In this document: positions 8,024 through 42,600 of the stretch, one piece after another | How positions within the stretch are numbered: position 1 is the first letter of the stretch | Layout: every line of letters begins with the position of its first letter | Assembly: GCF_032854445.1 (NCBI RefSeq) | Contig: NC_088303.1 | Location: 20,839,501-20,903,500 of the forward strand | Length of the DNA stretch: 64,000 nucleotides | DNA from: Liolophura sinensis | Taxonomy: Eukaryota; Mollusca; Polyplacophora; Chitonida; Chitonidae | Reading direction: 5' to 3' | Translations under genes and position numbers: made by a program | Notes under the pieces: generated by a model | The model's database searches: none | What the model was told of the DNA's origin: nothing | The model's input: the letters and a program-made list of their open reading frames with translations, nothing else

Positions 8024-8127
8024 ATCGGCTTCCATACTTCCGCTATTTTTTTTCAGGTTTCGTTCATGAAAGTCTAAAGACAACTTTTGTTATTGAAAAA
8101 AAATTCTGATGCAAATCGCAATTTTAT

Positions 8128-8505
8128 TTAGTCTATGACTTGAAGGCAACACACAGCCGATGTAAACCATACAAGAGGTTATACTGAAGGTATACATAGG
8201 CAGTGAGTATAGTATCGGTATTTAATCTGTGACTTGAAGGCAACAAACAGCTGATATAAGCCACACGAGAGGTTATACTGAAGGTATACATCGGCAGTGG
8301 GTATTTTATCGGTAATTAATCTGTGACTTGAAGCCAACAAACGGTTGATGCAAACCACACGAGAGGTTATACTGAAGGTATACATAGGCAAGTGGGTATT
8401 TTATCGGTATTTAATCTGTGACTTGAAGCCAACAAACAGCTGATGCAAGCCACACGAGAGGTTATACTGAAGGTATGTGTGGGTAATGGGTAATACCGGT
8501 ATTTA
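8128..8505. repeat. 94-bp tandem repeat, four copies
   Basis: The motif CTGTGACTTGAAGGCAACAA recurs at about 8133, 8228, 8322 and 8416 (spacing 94-95). Each copy continues through CACACGAGAGGTTATACTGA and AGGTATACATAGGCAGTGGG. Divergence between copies is moderate. No gene overlaps. Confidence 0.9.
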
Positions 8506-11924: not shown

Positions 11925-12690
11925 GCGCGCATTATGGGCAGTGGTGCAAGCACTGTGAGCGGAGCATTCGCTGTGTGCGTTGTGGACAGTGTTGCGAGCA
12001 CCGGAGAGAAGCATATGCACAGTGCAGTATGGGCAATGGTGAGAGTACCAGATGGAAGTATGTGCTGAGTGCATGTGGGCAGTGATGCGAGTACCGAAGG
12101 GAAGCATATGCGGAGCGCCGCATGGGCAGTAGTTCTCGACGGCCGGCTAGAAGTATGTGCAGTATTGACGGTGGTTCGAATACTGGCGGAGAGTATGTGT
12201 GGAGTACAGTTTTGGGCAGGGTGTGAGCACTGTCGGAAGTATGTGCTGACTGCATTATGGGGAGTGGTACGAGCACCAGAGGAAAGTATGTGCCAAGTGC
12301 AGTACGGGCAGTGGTACGAGCACCAGAGGGAAGTATGTGTGGAGTGCAGTATGAGCAGTGGTGTGAACACCAGAGGGAAGTATGTGTGGAGTGCAGTATG
12401 GGCAGTGTTGTGAACACCAGAGGGAAGTATGTGTGGAGTGCAGTATGGACAGTGGTGCGAGCACCAGAGGGAAGTATGTGTGGAGTGCAGTATGGGCAGT
12501 GGTGAGAGCACCGGAGAGAAGTATGTGCGGAATGCAGTAAGGGCAGTGGTGTGAGCACTGTAGGAAGTATGTGCTAACTGCATTATGGACAGTCGTACGA
12601 GCACCAGAGGAAAGTATGTGCGGAGTGCAATATGGAGAGTGGTGCGAGCACCAGAGGAAAGTATCCACTGAGTGCAGTATGTGCCCATTT
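11925..12690. repeat. 47-bp minisatellite, about 16 copies
   Basis: The unit, centred on GAGCACCAGAGGGAAGTATG then TGTGGAGTGCAGTATGGGCAGTGGT, recurs exactly every 47 bases. GAGCACC-type starts lie at 12271, 12318, 12365, 12412, 12459, 12506, 12553, 12600 and 12646. Copies before 12240 are more diverged. The unit lacks stops in several frames and 47 is not a multiple of three, so long overlapping open frames on both strands (up to 260 codons) arise without being genes. Confidence 0.92.
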
Positions 12691-18400: not shown

Positions 18401-21400
18401 CTGATTATAAAGTTAAAATGTCTTACCTGAGGAAATCATGTAGGACTCTCCTACAATATCCATTCGATACGTATCATATTTCTCTATTCTTTTGTCAAGA
18501 AGTGTAAACAAGCAGTTCATTGTCGTGATGACATCACTGGGAGAACATTTAGATATCAGAGATGAGATGCCATGGATATCAGCAAACATTATTGTGGCCG
18601 AGCTGAAAAACTCGGTATTTACCTCCGCTCTCTGAGAGAGACTGCTAACAATAGAGGGCGGCATCAACTGACACATCACTGATTTAGCGCGCTTTTCCTC
18701 GGCTTTTACTTCCTGTATGCGAGTATTCAAAGCCTTGATGAACCGATTGTAGGACAGCAGAATGTTTCTGATTGAGCAACCAAGAAAAGGTAGGAACGAC
18801 AACGAAAGGAAAATCAGAATAATGTATCCTGTAACGACAGTTCGATCGCCATATTCCTGTTGAGTGATAGTTTCCAACATGTCTTCTTTCGCTCTCTGTG
18901 TAGTGTTTTGCTGCAGAATCACAAATCGTTCCACCACGTCCGGCCATGACAGACGTGTAGTCATGTTGTAAGCAATCAAAGCTCCAGCCTTACGGAAGGT
19001 AAGGTCTTCAACCTTTATGGAGTTTTGTGGGGAAGCATTCTGTGTTATAGTAGAGAACCAGTTATCCACTAACATGTTAACCGCACTGTGGAAAAGAACG
19101 GAATCCAAAGGCGATGGCTCCTCATTCATCTGGGAAAACGATTTCAATGCATCCTTTTCAATAACGCAGTGGAAATTCAAAATCAGTTGCAGTAGATATC
19201 TCACCAAGCTTTTCCAAAATTTTATTTCGTTTTTTTCTGGGTATGCCCGCACCCAGACCGCCGACATTTTGTTTATTATACTAGAGTATGCGGACAGTTG
19301 ATCAGTAATGGACAGTGTTGTGTCCTCGAACACCCTGCGAAAACTCCGGACGTACGGCTGAAGTTCTTGTAACCAGTGTGACTTGGTCATGATATGTCGA
19401 TCCACTAAGAGACTGGCTTCACGAAGGCCTGCCTCACTTTCCTCTGTCTGTTCTGTCTGATGAAGGGTCATGGCTGCCCTCTCCCTCCTCACGTTATCAA
19501 TCAGCGTCTCTATATCCACAACTAAAGCTCGCACCTAATGAACACATTTATACATATGGATCACCATCTATTTATTAACTTATGTTTTTACTTATTTATT
19601 TATCTATGATTGTTATTGAACACCACACTGAAGAATGTTTCACTTTTATGATAGCGATCGTTTTAATGAGTGGGGTATAACATTCTAATGCATAAAAAAT
19701 TCAGACTCAGTTTTTTGACAGTCTTAACATGGCAATCCACACTGGTGGAAACCGGATTGCGAGAGGTAAACCCTTGCCCTGGGTAAACAGATATGCACAC
19801 CATAATTGTAGAAGATAAATGATCTGCAACCAGCCTTAGATTGCACACATACGGGTCATCTACCAGTCATTGTTAAGAATAGTGAGAGCAATGGATTTCA
19901 CAAATCCGCACCTAAAGTCAAGAATTAAATTCCTTTAGAGATAGGCCTAAACTTAACTATGATCTCGTTTAAGAATGAGACGTGAACGTACAATTATCAT
20001 TTTTATTACTTGAAGACTCGAGAATGAGTAAATAAATCAATATGCTTGACAAGCAACAGTCAAGTGAAATTGGTACAAAAGGTAAGGAGGGAATTAAAGA
20101 AACGAAGAAATTTTCACGTAATGGGATCTTGCTAGCCCAAACAGGAAAACCCTTCATTCACTGGCAAAACGTTAGACCATACTCTATCGATGGAAGAACT
20201 CTGCTGATGCCTGTCCATCAGCCCTAAACGTGGGAGAACTCACGCATCTGATGTGTGCTATTTATTCCGCCAAGGCCTACAACTCACCTGAGGGTTGTTA
20301 TATATCACGCCAAGATAAAAGCTCACCTGATGTTTGGTATGTATTCCACCAAGGTTACAACTCACCTGATGTTTGATATGTATTCCACCAAGGTTACAAC
20401 TCACCTGATGTTTGGTATGTATTCCACCAAGGTTACAACTCACCTGATGTTTGGTATGTATTCCACCAAGGTTACAACTCACCTGATGTTTGGTATGTAT
20501 TCCACCAAGGTTACAACTCACCCGATGTTTGGTATATATTCCACCAAGGTTACAACTCACCTGATGTTTTGTATTTATCCCGCCAAAGGTTATAGAACTC
20601 ACCTGTTGTTTTGTCATCAGCTCACTGGACTTGTCTGTCACAAAACAGATACACAGGATCAACATGGCCACTACCGGAAGTATGAAAAGCATCAGAAATC
20701 TACCAAGATGGAACCGCTCTCTGCTCCGTATGGCATGATCGCTAATAATCCCCAACGCCACTGTCATATAAACAAATATGTGATCAAATGTTTACAAGTT
20801 GGAGGGCAACCGTAGGCTATATAAATCTGTCTAAGGTGCTACCATTTTGTAATTATTTTTGATGAAATGTATGGATTTATTTCTTTCATTGTACTCATCA
20901 CAGGTCTATACATGAATGAAACGAGTGTTGTAAATGCAATATGAACGTTTCAGTTTACTCAACTTTTATCTAAATACTAAGAAAAACGTGTTGACACTAC
21001 CGCTGTTTTGTCACCTATCACGTGTTTAGCACACTAGTACTGATATACATTGTACGTTCATATAGGTTGTAATACTACGCCTATTAACTCTTGAACTAAG
21101 GGATATGCCGGTAATGTTGTTTTTATCCGGTAGAAAGACAATCTACATGTATTTTCGAACAATAAAGTATGCGGTAAATACACCTGTATGCATTTAACAA
21201 AATTTACTCGCTAATTTCGGCTACATAACAGATTAATTTGCATTTCACTTGAATTCTTGTACTAATAATCAGTTGTACCCGTCTGTTTCCTGTGCCGCGG
21301 AGTCTGATTCAATTGTTGCATGACGGCCTCGAGCTCCGCAACGGTATCAGGGGAGTCAACTCTCCAGCTATAGAACGGCCTCTCGTGATAACCGAAGTCC

Positions 21401-21402
21401 AT
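15410..21402 (-). CDS. NIT-domain receptor guanylate cyclase, divergent active site (gene A)
   Basis: The hand-spliced exons (5' to 3') are 21279-21402, 20603-20760, 18427-19534, 17961-18098, 16908-17006, 15946-16034 and 15410-15754. That is 2061 nt, 686 residues, with all phases compatible. The start is the ATG at 21402. Domains: short cytoplasmic N terminus, membrane segment about 63-82 (FLMLFILPVVAMLILCICFV), extracellular NIT domain from about 95 (RRERAAMTLH at 110-119), membrane segment about 327-349, charged linker, class III cyclase domain about 405-575 and a 110-residue tail. NIT domains are nitrate/nitrite sensors in bacteria, and the cyclase would make cGMP. Several catalytic positions are altered: D413 is kept, but the guanine-recognition Glu is D453, the second metal Asp is E457, the guanine Cys is R525 and the Asn is G532 (Arg 536 kept). 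The product may be weak, altered or inactive. Gene B is the nearest paralog. Confidence 0.87.
16515..16625. repeat. Dispersed repeat shared with 28330-28425
   Basis: CCAGAACAGCG, GCTGGCAAATGA, GGTAACCTGTGAAATGCGGT and GTCAATTAACCTC occur here in gene A intron 5. In the same order, the related blocks GGCCAGTAAATGACAACGTG, AACCGGTAAAATACGGTC and GTCAATCTACCTC occur at 28330-28425. The family is unidentified. Confidence 0.55.
17276..17350 (-). pseudogene. Decayed copy of gene A exon 4 (first)
   Basis: On the minus strand, TATTCAGCGATTTG, ATATATACCCCGGAGCC and AGTCTCCTTCCAACTTG align with TATTCAGTGATCTTG, ATATATTCCCCGGAGTC and AGTGTCCTTCAAGTTGG of the functional exon at 17961-18098. Frame and splice sites are lost. 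Confidence 0.65.
17526..17610 (-). pseudogene. Decayed copy of gene A exon 4 (second)
   Basis: On the minus strand, GATCTTGCGAATGTATTCAG then TGATTTTGA and ATATTCACACAGGTCA match the coding sequence and the donor of exon 4 (17961-18098). An internal deletion removes the part coding for EIIYSPES. The donor-like CAGGTCA is preserved but the frame is not. Confidence 0.72.
18427..19534 (-). CDS. Gene A exon 3: NIT domain, second membrane segment, first half of cyclase
   Basis: This single 1108-nt exon runs from VRALVVDIETLID to ESYMISS. Its acceptor is TGTTCATTAG before GTGCGAGC, and its donor is TCAG before GTAAGA. The catalytic block FADIHGISSLISKCSPSDV aligns residue for residue with [19 protein letters not shown] of gene B. 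It ends in YRMDIVGESYM where the family has [11 protein letters not shown]. Confidence 0.88.
19586..19855. mobile_element. Degenerate SINE-like repeat (family 3) in gene A intron 2
   Basis: The blocks ACTGAAGAATGTTTCACTTT, GGTGGAAACCGGATTG and GTAGAAGATAAATGATCTGC resemble parts of the repeat at 48190-48502 and of SINE family 1. Boundaries are uncertain. Confidence 0.4.
20238..20605 (-). repeat. 39-bp minisatellite made of repeated 5' splice sites (gene A intron 2)
   Basis: CTCACCTG-type motifs (CAGGTGAG on the gene strand) start at 20283, 20322, 20361, 20400, 20439, 20478, 20517 (as CTCACCCG), 20556 and 20598. Spacings are 39, except 42 at the last step. The motif at 20598 is the donor of exon 2, so the array repeats the exon/intron boundary. 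The reading frame of exon 2 stays open through all units, with peptide unit VSCNLGGIHTKHQ. A further degenerate unit lies near 20238. Confidence 0.93.
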
Positions 21403-21835
21403 CCCTCGACGCTAAAGAGGTTCCTGCTAGCATTCCGATGTTTCGTAGCTTCTCTTGCTGACCTTTGAGCCGTGGTCAAAGTTGACCAGTGTTGAAAGGC
21501 AATTGATATTTATGGCTAGTGATTCCTTCTAAAACAGACGGAATGAATGTATTCCACCAAGGAAAGAAAAACAACAAAGGAAGTAAAAGTTTTAAGCGAC
21601 AAATCCAAGATGCATGTCTCCCTGCGATTCATCAATGAATACAATTTGTTTACCCTATTTCGTTTCCGAAAAATTCAGACTGCCGAGAGAAAATTCAATT
21701 CTAAGGATTTTCGTCTTAAGTTTTGTTTGTAAATGAGGTTTGATGACGTAAATTCCAAGTCAAGGCATAGTTTTTGTTCTTACAGATTATAATGCCATGA
21801 AATTGGTTATATAATTTATATATGTTTTCCGTGGG

Positions 21836-29109: not shown

Positions 29110-29308
29110 CAGAAGATACCAAATTTACATAGATACGAACACTGTTGAATTTTGTAGTCTTTAAATCGGTTCAAATTTAAGAACACATTTGCAGTGCTCA
29201 CAGTTATCAAATATTGTTACCATATTCTAGTACTGAGCAAATTAAACCGGCTCATTTGTAGGCCACCACGCCCTATACATTCATATACCTCAAAAATATG
29301 TTTCGTTG

Positions 29309-29625
29309 AACCGGTGTGCCACGTGCAAATAAATCAACATCGCAGTTTAGGAAACATGGTTGTTCTGAATTTGTTCAAGAACCAGGTTCCACCTGCAAAT
29401 AAATCAACATTACACTTAGGAAATATGGTCGTTGTGGATTTGTTCAAGAACCGATGTGCCATCTGCAAATAAATCAACATTACGGTTTAGGAAATATGGT
29501 CGTTGTGGATTTGTTCAAGAACCGGTGTTCCATCTGCAAATAAATCAACATTACTGTTAAGGGAATATGGTCGTTGTGAATTGGTTCAAGAACCAGTGTG
29601 CCATCTGCAAATAAATTAACATTAA
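29309..29625. repeat. 71-bp tandem repeat, about 4.5 copies
   Basis: GAACCGGTGTGCCA-type starts occur at 29309, 29380, 29450, 29521 and 29592. Each is followed by CTGCAAATAAATCAACATTA and GAAATATGGTCGTTGTGGAT. No gene overlaps. Confidence 0.9.
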
Positions 29626-30376: not shown

Positions 30377-33300
30377 ATGTCTGTGTTATGGCCCGGACGA
30401 TGGCGGAGGAACGCTAATGAGGTCTCAGAGTTGCCGGAGTCGGTGAAATCCTCGAGCTCCAGCTTAACGCCGTCCCAAATGGACCTGGCTATCATGAACA
30501 TGCTGTATGCAGAGGAGAAGTGGGACTCCATGTGCAAAGGTGACAATAACTTACGCTTCTTTAACCTCGCAGTACTTTACACAGTTTACATTTTCATTCT
30601 CACATTTTGTCCTTGGCGTGCATATATTCCAAAGGAAACAAAGCCGGTACAGATGTTTTTGAAATGAGCGACAGGAAAAGGTTTGAAACTGATAGTTTTA
30701 TTTATTTAATTATTTATTTATTTGATTGGTGTTTTACCCCGTGCTCAAGAATATTTCACTTATACGACGGCGGCCAGCATTATGGTGGGAGGAAACCTGG
30801 CACAGCCCGGGGGAAACCCACAGCCATCCCCACGTTGTTGCAAGATCTTCCCACTTATGGCCAGAGGGGAGGCCAGCATGAGCTGGACTTGAACTCATAG
30901 CGACCGCATTGGTGAGAGGCTCCTGGGTCATTAGTGCGCTAATCAATTGAGCCACGGAGCACCCCCCCCCCCCCCACCCCACTCCCACAACCCCCGATAG
31001 TTTTATTAAATTTTACCTAAATTTGACATTGTTGAAATCACACCTGTAAGAGTGCATAGCAATTTGCATCACCTAAATTTGGAAACAAGTTGTTGCTGGG
31101 CACCAAGTGCCAATGCATTCCACTGTATTGTTTCAGGAAACCCCATCACGATGTCTGGGAAACGACGTCAGCTTTGTCGCATGGTATCCATTGTGGCGGT
31201 GCCGCTCATGATCCTCATCGGCATGACGGCCAACACATTCGGCGTGACATTACACGGTTACCTCAACGCTCGCGGCATTCGGAGAGTTTTGCGTTTCAGT
31301 ATAGAATTGGGGGACTTCATTCATAATTTACAAAAGGAGAGGGACGCTAGTGCCCTGTACTTATATAACTCGCTGAGATCGGACTCTAAAGAGGCGTTGC
31401 TCGAGAGCTACATTGACACGGATAACGTTCTGAAAGATCTTAGTTACTGGCCGTCAATTACCGCTATTGGTGCCCCCGAATTCCTCACGCAAGAGAAATA
31501 CCAGATCTATCTAAATCAGCATCGCTACGAGCTCGATACGCTCAACCTTACAGTAACGCAAGAGCTTCTGTTTTACACAGAAGGCATCAACGTCTTCCTC
31601 GACTGGCTGTACGATTCCATAACTGAGGCCAGATCGGGTACGGTATGGAGGAGTCTCGTCGCCTTTCTTGAAATCACTGACGCCAAAATTTCTTTCGGAA
31701 TAGAGAGGGCCCTGGGGGCAATTTTTTACGCTCGTGGAAGTTTCCCAACCATAGATGAATATCTTTGGTTCTCTGAGAGTCAAGATATTGCTAATGCCTC
31801 CTTCTGGTCAGCTCGTCGATTTTCAGACGTCGCTGCATCAATCTACGATGAACTTATTGCTAAAAATGACACGATTGTAGGCGTTCTCGAGCACATGAGA
31901 CAGGATATCCGTCTAAACGAGCGATCTCATCGGAAAGGATCCTTTAGCACTGCCGAGTACTGGATGGAGAGCGTGACCAGTTACCTCAAGGTTCTACTGG
32001 ATACCCAGTTAGCGGTGATGTCATCCATTTTTGATGAATTGGATGAGCGGGATCATGAAGACTTGCTGAAGATGAGTGTCATAGCCAGTGTCTTCTTCAT
32101 TGTGCTGCTCATGTGTCCTGTTATTATCCATGGTGTCTACAACTTGACGACAGAGATGCAGAGCTATTCAATCACCCTAGCTAGTCGGTACGTTTACCTT
32201 CTTTATAATCATTTGATGTTGATCTTAATTGGAATATTGATTTACCCTCGTTTTTTTTTCAGTATAGATAACAGGAATACAAATAAAGATAAATTGTTTC
32301 TCTTTTTTGTTTTACTTAAGAACAAATGCTCTCCAGAAAGAAAAGAAGCGAACTGAAATGTTGTTATATCAGATGCTTCCGAGGAGCGTTGCCAACATTC
32401 TTAAGCGAAACGAAGAAGTGGATCCAGAGAAATTCGCCGAGGTCACGATCTTCTTCTCGGACATAGTTGGCTTCACACGGATGTCTTCGCAATGCTCCCC
32501 AGTTCAGGTCATCAACATGCTAAAAAGCTTGTTCACAGTCTGTGATAAGCTGTTACAGCAGTACGACGTTTACAAGGTTGAGACGATCGGAGACGCCTAC
32601 ATGGTGGCCTCGGGTAAGTATGCCCAATGTTTCACACTGGGAAAGAAAAGCTGCTGTCGCCATTCTCATTACCGGGGGGTACAGTATTGTCAAGATCGTT
32701 TTGTGAATTATTCTCCAGACCGATTCGTAGATTGTTTCAAAATATCGGGGGGTGATGTACTCCCGTGAAAGAAGAGTGCATGATTCTCATGGCAGGAGAG
32801 TGTATGATCCTGACACGTCAGTGTATGGCTCTCATGATAGGATAGCGCTCGGTTTTCATGGCAGGACAGTGGATGGTTCTCATGGCAGGATAGTGGATGG
32901 TTCTCATGGCAGGATAGTGGATGGTTCTCATGACAGGAGAGTGTGTATGGTTCTCATGGCAGGAGTGCATGCTTCTCATGACAGGGGAATGTATGGTTCT
33001 CATGGCAATACTACTTTAGTACCAGCATCTATATATAAATCAATAGAATGCTGTAATATCTGTCAATTATTTATATTCCAGTGATTGTCCATTTGAACAC
33101 TGTGTGCATGAACATGTCTGAGCGTCATGCATGATTTGGTACGTTTAGCAGAAATAAGCAATTCGGTTATTTTCAGGTCTGCCGAACCGGAATGGCAACC
33201 AGCACGTTTCTCAGATCGCCACAATGGCACTGGATCTGGTTCATACCATTAGCTTCCTGGAGATTCCACATCTACCGGGCTCAAGGTTTCATCTCAGGAT

Positions 33301-39621: not shown

Positions 39622-42600
39622 CTATAAAAATACCCTTTCAATGTGGCCATTCACTTGAAACTTGAGAGTAAACATGGACATGGAAAACTATACCAAACAA
39701 ATGTTCACTTCACTAGTCACGGGTGTGAATAAATTTGAAGTAAAAATCAATTCAAAGTGATTTCAGCTATGTGACTTAAGACAGGTTTAGCTTAAGGGTG
39801 AGCAAATCAATCTACAGTACTAATGCAAACCAATATGAAAGAAATAATAAAATAAATATAGCAGAAGTTTTAGAGGTATATACACACCTGGTTTACACTC
39901 AGACTTGATGTTCTCAGCAATGCCTTCATCATCTGGTTTTTGTTTCCTTTTCTTGATACAGATGCCCTCCACTGCAACATATCACAGGGATATAGTCAAT
40001 TTTATAGATCCAATAGGTCATGAGTTAAAACTTTAAATGTTATATATTGAAAATTTTAGCAAAAAAGCCAATTTTCGGTATTAACAAAGAATAGACCAAT
40101 CAATGCCTTTCAGTAAATATTAGACTCATATACGTATCTGTATTACTGTTAAAGTGTTAAAATGAATTTAAACTTAAATGCAACATACTTTATAAATTTT
40201 AGAAATTGTTTCAGAAATTTTGAACAGTAAATATGTGCAAAAATAATGCTGTTATAATTAGAAAAATAATTATTCCAAAATAAGAGCAAAAACTTAGCTG
40301 GATTTGCTCTGATCCATTTTTTGGCCAAAATCTATGGTACACACTCTTTAACATGGGCATAATGAAAAGATTGAATGACTGATTTGTATTTTAAGTTTTA
40401 ATTCAGAGTAAACCACTGGCAAATAACTGAGAAACTTTACCAACTGTGATACAAAGACCTTACAACAGTGAGGTAAATGTGAATGCTACATTGGTGGAAG
40501 TCAACTTTGGTGGAAACTTCATGTATAGGAATTAAGTCCAGATTTTGATACTTATTGTCATTATTTGGGACTTGCACTTTCTGGGTATAGCACAGATTTG
40601 AGTGCTGAATGGCTAAGAAGTTTGTATTTATGACAGGTTAGGTAGCTAATTGATAGCAATGCATCTCAACGGTCTAGACCTTTTGATTAACAGCTTTCCC
40701 AATTCAAAGTGCCCAGAGTAAACTAGTCAAATGGATGTTTGCCCATTGGTCTAAACACTATTTGGAACAACTATTGCTCAGAAACCTCACAACCAGTGAG
40801 AATTACATAAATTAAATACACAATAGTTATGTACTGAGTTTTGATCAAAAACCCTACAACCAGCGAGAATTACATAAATTAAATATGCAATAGTTATGTA
40901 CCGACTTTTGATCAGATACCCCACAACCAGCGAGAATGACATAAATTTAAATCGCAATAGTTATGTACGGATCAGATTTTCTAACTTAATGTGAAGTTTT
41001 ACAAAGAAAACCTGCACACAAACCTTTATCAAAATCAGACAGTATTTGACACAATTATTGCATGAAAACCTGGGCATGACAGACTGACAAATTAATATCC
41101 CTAGCTTTCACTGAAGTGCAAGATAAAAGTAAAAGTCAGGTTCAGATAAAAGTAATGCCATCAACAATACGAAATGCTTCAATTAAGCTGTGAAAGAAAA
41201 AAAAAGGTACGCGTAATACTCTGTATAATATCAAAGTTCATGACATTTGTAATTAATTTGTTAATTTGTAATTAACATGTACAGTTGTAATTAATTCCTC
41301 ATTAAATCGTACCCTAGTACACTATTCCATAATCAAATGTGTCTCAACTGAGAGAATAGAAGAACTGCGAATATATCATCAGTTATATTACACTAGTATT
41401 TTCATTGTCTACTGTATACCTTCAATATCTATTCACTAAACACACCTGACTTGGGGCAGCTCTTGGGGGCATCCCCTGCTCCTTTTAACAGAATTGGAAC
41501 CCCGACTTCTCGGCTTTCAACAACATGGTCACCAGAACATTTCACATCTTTATAATCAGGATTCTTTTTTCTAGTCTTCTTCTTCAATATCTTTCCCCTC
41601 ACTAATTAGGTAAGAAACAAACAGTAGCTTTAAACAGTATGAGTTGCTTAGCGTGCTAGCGCAGTGTAGTGACCCAGGTCGCTGTGAGTTAAAGTCCAGT
41701 TCATGCTGGCTTCCTCTCTGGCCATAAGTCGGAAGGTCTGCCAGCAACCTGCGGATGGTCATGGGTTTCCCCCAGGCTGTGCCCGGTTTCCACCCACCAT
41801 AATGCTGGCTGCCGTCGTATAAGTGAGATATTCTTGAGTACGGGGTAAAACACCAATCAAATAAATAAATAAATTAAACAGTATGAACATATTAATCTGA
41901 AATTTTATGTATTGTTATTAAAATGTACCTGTAATCCAAAACTGCAGGACTGGAGTTATGGCTCTAAATTTCACTGTGAGCACCTGCCTTTGTGTTTTTC
42001 TGTCATGTATGAAGATCAACTCTTAGGGAAACATTGATGATCAGTTTGGAAACTATTTTAGAACTCAGTTAAAAAAAAATACATTTTGTCGCAAAGCTAC
42101 GCCCCAGGTAGCTTGTCTGTAGGGTATACATATAAATGCAAATTTCAGCTGAATAAATGACGTCGATTTCTAATACACACAGAAAGAATATGAATGTTGT
42201 AATTTATGGTCATAAACATAAATGCATCGCATGATCAATGATCGAACACCCTAACCCCACTCATTCCCATCTTACTGCACTGCACTGCACTTCACTTATA
42301 TGCAAAAGCTGAGCTCCATTATTGGAGTACTTTTTGAGATACATGTATTACTTGTAATATTTACCTTAATTTGGTAATTAAAATTAATATGCACGTAGGA
42401 TAGTGATAGAACACAGTCCTCTTGTCATTATGCTTTGCATGCATGAAAAATGTGAGATGAATACATGTAGTACCTTTTAATATACCATTTTCATTATTTA
42501 CCTTAACATTTCTTTTAGCATTATTGGACATCACCACTGATGCACTGGGTAAGACCAATAATTTTATGAGGCTAACATACATGATGTAATAACAAATGCA

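Follow-up and report, generated by a model that had tools for sequence, protein, structure and literature searches.

Our analysis indicates that the nine splice donors at the start of intron 2 of a receptor cyclase gene of the chiton Liolophura sinensis (gene A) quite probably arose by tandem copying of the exon 2/intron 2 junction, that splicing would still use the first of them, and that the array is nearly neutral. On this account a stretch made up of the last 12 nt or more of exon 2 and the opening bases of intron 2 would have been duplicated in tandem and then amplified, in the fashion of a minisatellite, to nine copies. The first copy would be the real exon-intron boundary, and the extra copies would all lie downstream, within the intron. 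The spliceosome would most likely stay with the first donor, so that the extra donors, which we call decoys, would normally be spliced out as part of the intron; the array in gene A would then be close to neutral. The window analysed here is a stretch of 64,000 nucleotides (contig NC_088303.1, positions 20,839,501 to 20,903,500), to which the coordinates in Table 1 refer. The paper describing the assembly names the species, in its available portion, Liolophura japonica (PMC11068029), later corrected to L. sinensis (PMC12441733). The mitochondrial genes in the assembly fit a mollusc and stand in the ancestral molluscan order, for which reason an origin from a lancelet was rejected.

A sequence-only reading of this DNA had described nine GTGAG donors, spaced by steps of 42 and then 39 bases that keep phase 0, in a frame without a stop as far as 20258, with inserts of 14, 27, 40 and up to 105 residues. 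These particulars hold. The native donor and eight decoys run on the minus strand from 20602 to 20287 (in the text we cite the first base of each GTGAG, where the earlier reading cited the last), all eight decoy offsets in Table 1 are divisible by three, and phase 0 is open until the TAA, whereas the other two frames contain 12 and 9 stops over the same 345 nt. The description of the donor context stands in part: six of the eight decoys do keep CAGGTGAGTTGT and the unit at 20521 (CGG) does deviate, but the second deviant is the one at 20326 (GTGAGC) and not the one at 20287, which keeps CAGGTGAGTTGT. The 9-mer CAGGTGAGT is shared by the native donor and six of the eight decoys, seven donors of nine in all. 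Read on the minus strand, TGATGACAAAACAACAG closes the exon and GTGAGTTCTATAACC opens the intron. TRF calls the whole array (20248-20611) with a period of 39, 9.2 copies, 88% matches and a score of 517. The array makes up about 355 of the roughly 1068 nt of intron 2. We retain the exon and intron numbers of the earlier reading; exon 2 is read here from an in-frame ATG, its first membrane segment having a hydropathy peak of 3.14 over LMLFILPVVAMLILCICFV, and exon 3 is taken to begin at 19534, after ...CATTAG. A scan of 19000-21500 against Rfam gave no matches.

Table 1. Features of gene A and gene B in window coordinates; offsets are counted from the native donor, and a slash marks the exon-intron cut.
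Feature	Position	Strand	Remarks
Exon 2 of gene A, 3' part	20603..20767	-	first membrane segment; C-terminal end ...SSELMTKQQ
39-bp minisatellite holding nine donors	20248..20611	-	TRF; start within exon tail
Native (first) donor GTGAG	20598..20602	-	context CAG/GTGAGT
Decoy donor 1, +42	20556..20560	-	
Decoy donor 2, +81	20517..20521	-	CGG/GTGAGT
Decoy donor 3, +120	20478..20482	-	
Decoy donor 4, +159	20439..20443	-	
Decoy donor 5, +198	20400..20404	-	
Decoy donor 6, +237	20361..20365	-	
Decoy donor 7, +276	20322..20326	-	CAG/GTGAGC
Decoy donor 8, +315	20283..20287	-	
TAA, first in-frame stop past native donor	20258..20260	-	phase 0
Exon 3 of gene A within stop-to-stop frame	18413..19534	-	NIT-like region, second membrane segment, cyclase domain start
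Gene B, second NIT receptor cyclase	31151..32613	+	ATG at 31151; two exons read; opposite strand beside gene A

The receptor-cyclase identity given to gene A by the earlier reading is borne out. A Pfam scan of exon 3 finds the start of the guanylate cyclase domain (PF00211, Guanylate_cyc, positions 4-66 of 183, E=3.3e-12), and exon 3 matches the neighbouring gene B at 5e-27; the 23 other matches of this exon in the genome are at 4.3e-21 or weaker and lie mostly over the cyclase part. With E-values up to 10 allowed, the Pfam NIT model found no match in gene A. Gene B has a NIT domain (E=7.9e-24) as well as the beginning of a cyclase domain, and the label of NIT sensor for gene A thus comes from homology to this neighbour. 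The junction between membrane segment and NIT region is a single open frame in gene B. By hydropathy, 29 residues separate the membrane segment from the ER pair of the NIT helix in gene A without any insert, and 36 in gene B; counted from the VP/LP anchor, the figures are 42 (LP anchor) and 45. The length of gene A without an insert is close to that of gene B, and use of any decoy adds at least 14 residues. Gene B has a minisatellite of its own, with a 24-bp unit, at 32773-33007, beginning 159 bp past the donor at 32614; its consensus unit has no GTRAG donor copies, in contrast to the gene A array. TRF also reports minisatellites elsewhere in the window, at 8125-8476 (94-bp units), 11929-12681 (47 bp), 29308-29624 (71 bp) and 40770-40968 (67 bp).

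The clue to the origin of the array is a feature absent from the earlier reading, namely that the array starts inside the exon. The exon tail ACAAAACAACAG is found again as ACAAAACATCAG ahead of the first decoy, with 11 of the last 12 exon nucleotides identical, and the match scores 9.5, whereas none of 2000 random positions of that strand exceeds 7. This repetition of the exon tail before the first decoy suggests that the exon-intron boundary itself was duplicated in tandem, and speaks against an unrelated intronic repeat.

Is this an isolated case? A genome-wide DNA search, in which very common words were skipped and the best candidates alone were scored, gave one other locus among the matches listed, with 65-67% identity, at 25.92 Mb of contig C3. 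There a 37-bp unit in 26 copies starts at the end of an ABCC3-like exon (E=0.00052), and the unit contains 35 exon nucleotides, 32 of them identical. On this evidence the gene A unit does not resemble a dispersed element. Introner-like elements carry splice signals into genes as near-identical dispersed copies, which is not what we find: the single other locus listed is too divergent, and sequence varies among the arrays compared, most of which carry the end of their own exon.

A search by motif proved more productive. Three copies of CAGGTGAGT with spacers of 20-50 bases gave 735 matches, against 30 for the reversed motif. We took as a sample every distinct array among the matches listed for this triple, 14 arrays in all, every one on contig C1 and reaching to about 46 Mb. 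Eight of the 14 have at their start an exon end with homology support. The exons are those of a helicase-like protein that we take to be Mot1/BTAF1 (L014, 9.5e-19), a protein with a Fe-hydrogenase C-terminal domain, presumably CIAO3 (L019, 1.5e-12), an OGDH-like 2-oxoglutarate dehydrogenase E1 (L020, 6.1e-14), MRP (L023, 1.7e-18), an SPT3 homologue (L026, 3e-7) and, with weak support, TELO2 (L015, E=0.0029), alpha-L-fucosidase (L018, 5.9e-4) and Tsr1/BMS1 (L024, 1.2e-4), the last two under the Pfam curated cut-off. At the start of L021 there is an open frame for which no homologue was found. At the start of the other five arrays (L016, L017, L022, L025 and L027) no exon was seen, and extending the flanks did not change this; for L017 one frame was scanned for homology, with no match. 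These five donor-rich arrays would be either intronic or adjacent to non-coding exons. That five of the 14 sampled arrays showed no exon at the start, and a sixth an open frame only, counts against the boundary-duplication account.

As the period we took the basic one in L015, L020 and L022 (51, 52 and 47) and not the higher-scoring TRF multiple. L021 has units of 45 and 43, and the exon end lies ahead of the start called by TRF by about 140 nt in L024 and about 11 nt in L021. Exon sequence, 12 to 59 nt of it, is contained within the units of nine of the 11 arrays tested, gene A included; in L018 and L021 the recurrence amounts to 3 nt only. Extrapolating from eight exon-end arrays per roughly 46 Mb, among the matches listed, boundary arrays built on CAGGTGAGT would number on the order of a hundred genome-wide.

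Could the gene A array nevertheless be an ordinary minisatellite of the intron that happens to adjoin the exon, with no seeding from the boundary? The exon tail match is only 12 nt long, minisatellites are abundant in the genome and in the window, and the 24-bp array of gene B lies 159 bp downstream of a donor. However, the tail match scores above all of the random positions, and boundary-spanning units with 21 to 59 exon nucleotides occur in eight other arrays, seven from the C1 sample together with the ABCC-like one. We therefore regard a chance neighbour as very unlikely.

If the array in gene A derives from the boundary, what should be made of its frame? Periods divisible by three are found in five of the 14 sampled arrays, which is the chance share. 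We compared frames in 11 arrays, namely gene A, the ABCC-like array, the eight with homology support and L021, assuming the frame from the open frame and the homologue (L021 has no homologue behind its frame) and counting as decoys, within 700 nt, the GTRAG sites preceded by AG or GG. Only in gene A is every decoy in frame and open, and this, too, counts against the boundary-duplication account. The fucosidase array, L018, has one in-frame open decoy, at +75, and in the remaining nine arrays the first in-frame stop is reached 1 to 95 nt past the native donor (1 to 41 nt in the BTAF1-, OGDH-, SPT3-, MRP- and CIAO3-like genes), with no in-frame decoy ahead of it. Arrays with stops and with non-triplet periods are thus present in other genes of the same Liolophura sinensis genome. 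Since the decoys of these other arrays are out of frame or lead into stops, productive mRNA there should need the first donor, and the other array-bearing genes probably rely on it. Given those stops, gene A, like the other array genes, most likely splices at its first donor as well. What counts against this is that seven of the nine gene A donors share CAGGTGAGT, so that sequence alone gives the first donor no preference, and a downstream donor is able to win over an identical upstream one.

How surprising, then, is an open array of triplet period? For concreteness, consider a random 39-nt unit, drawn from the window, placed after GTGAGT. Such a unit is free of stops in 56% of draws in phase 0, in 47% in phase 1 and never in phase 2, and the chance that a phase-0 array is both in frame and open is approximately 1/3 x 0.56, or about 0.19. 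Moreover, the differences among the seven 39-nt units of gene A comprise 4 synonymous, 10 non-synonymous and 0 stop changes, where the expected shares are 0.21-0.25, 0.72-0.76 and 0.03, and these differences look neutral. Most likely, the triplet period and open frame of gene A are a coincidence at this locus.

These results bear on the two functions that the earlier reading had offered. The first is a length-tunable juxtamembrane linker, in which decoys are used and lengthen the link from the first membrane segment to the NIT-like sensor by 14 to 105 residues of VSCNLGGIHTKHQ repeats. It would account for eight decoys that are all open and in phase 0, six of them with the 9-mer of the native donor. 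On the other hand, an array in phase 0 is in frame and open by chance often enough, the unit differences have no synonymous bias, the paralogue gene B has no such insert, and arrays of the same kind in other genes are out of frame or run into stops; we consider the linker unlikely. The second is that selection maintains the redundant donors as a buffer, so that the exon can still be spliced should the native site be lost. Donor bases are indeed somewhat less variable than the rest of the unit, with 2 changes at 9 donor sites and 12 at 30 other sites in the seven units, but this difference is not significant (Fisher p=0.53), and in most of the other arrays stops or frame would leave a decoy unable to rescue the protein. 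A selected buffer seems to us very unlikely. Neither proposal has gained support, in view of the many arrays in the genome, the share of triplet periods, the chance expectation and the neutral-looking differences.

The boundary-duplication account places gene A beside a known phenomenon. In lancelets, exon-intron boundaries of some genes are duplicated in tandem in the manner of a minisatellite, and such repeats have been called mirages, and the available portions of the two papers that describe them (PMC3087553, PMC3902484) name Adh3, the globins BflGb6 and BflGb9 and troponin C as hosts, with imperfect mirages in PGBD5. According to the same portions, regular splicing is said to be undisturbed, the arrays are unstable in length, between haplotypes or somatically, the Adh3 unit measures 10-72 bp, and the authors propose that new introns may come from mirages. 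The gene A array is likewise tandem and minisatellite-like, its unit consists of exon nucleotides and a splice signal, AG/GT signals occur in many of its units, and 39 bp falls inside the Adh3 range. It differs, as far as those portions go, in that the host is a mollusc and that all decoys are in frame and open; the likeness rests on the sequence of one assembly, the reports on splicing and instability being those from lancelet.

Duplication of an AGGT-containing segment can also create an intron, the available part of one report giving a potato RdRp case (PMC4974935). Gene A shares with that case, so far as it is described there, the tandem duplication of a segment containing AGGT, but its intron is not formed by the array itself: the array ends at about 20248 and the intron continues to 19535, with no sign of a new intron.

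A limited literature search, over titles and the beginnings of abstracts, found no mollusc mirage. The available portions of papers on abalone TSSK1-like (PMC6905558), earthworm metallothionein (PMC12783039) and seabream myostatin-2 (PMC3045353) report repeats in introns and describe no boundary-spanning unit there, and in that of a paper on cone snail gene structure (PMC3862624) minisatellites appear in a reference only. As far as this search reaches, the gene A array is a mirage-type case in a new phylum, for which we claim no priority.

Many mirages in a mollusc would mean that they are not a cephalochordate oddity. They would also form a large natural set on how the spliceosome picks the first of several near-identical donors, and on whether minisatellites of donors ever contribute to new protein sequence. 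Being the sole array of 11 whose decoys all keep the frame, gene A makes a good test case. More speculatively, boundary minisatellites may sit at perhaps 100 or more chiton donors, and where the unit is open and of triplet length, as in gene A, some transcripts might use decoys, with copy number setting graded linker lengths and neutral slippage opening a route to new protein segments or introns; we think this scenario improbable as it stands.

Are donors, more generally, mutational hot spots for such arrays? By array count CAGGTGAGT does stand out. Among the matches listed for contig C1 (96 Mb, by eye) there are 10 arrays of CAGGTAAGT, 5 of AAGGTGAGT, 7 of the permuted motif and 4 of the reversed motif, and 14 of CAGGTGAGT among matches that reach only to about 46 Mb. 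Array counts weigh more here than match counts, matches within one array not being independent. In matches, CAGGTAAGT arrays gave 301 against 158 reversed, AAGGTGAGT arrays 153 against 51, and the acceptor motif TTTTGCAGG 35 against 0; the permuted control GGTCAGTGA gave 316 and its own reverse 95, though some of its units read CAGGTCAGT, which makes it unclean as a control. When sites at most 400 bases apart are grouped, 10 of 59 donor loci are clustered and 5 of 90 control loci, among 100 matches listed for each (Fisher p=0.029). However, single CAGGTGAGT sites themselves outnumber reversed ones by a factor of 3.7 (10,097 versus 2,731) and minisatellites are plentiful, and for these reasons we hold back from the claim: it is not established that donors in general are mutational hot spots.

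Two observations from elsewhere in the assembly may be recorded. In a tandem array at C1:2083765-2083989 the unit combines an acceptor-like signal with a donor-like one (TTTTGCAGGTATGT). Contig C99 (loci L012 and L013; 108,685 bp) consists of a mitochondrial genome of about 15.5 kb repeated about seven times, with seven COX1 matches at regular spacing, and a further mitochondrial copy lies on C632; C99 is probably an assembly concatemer.
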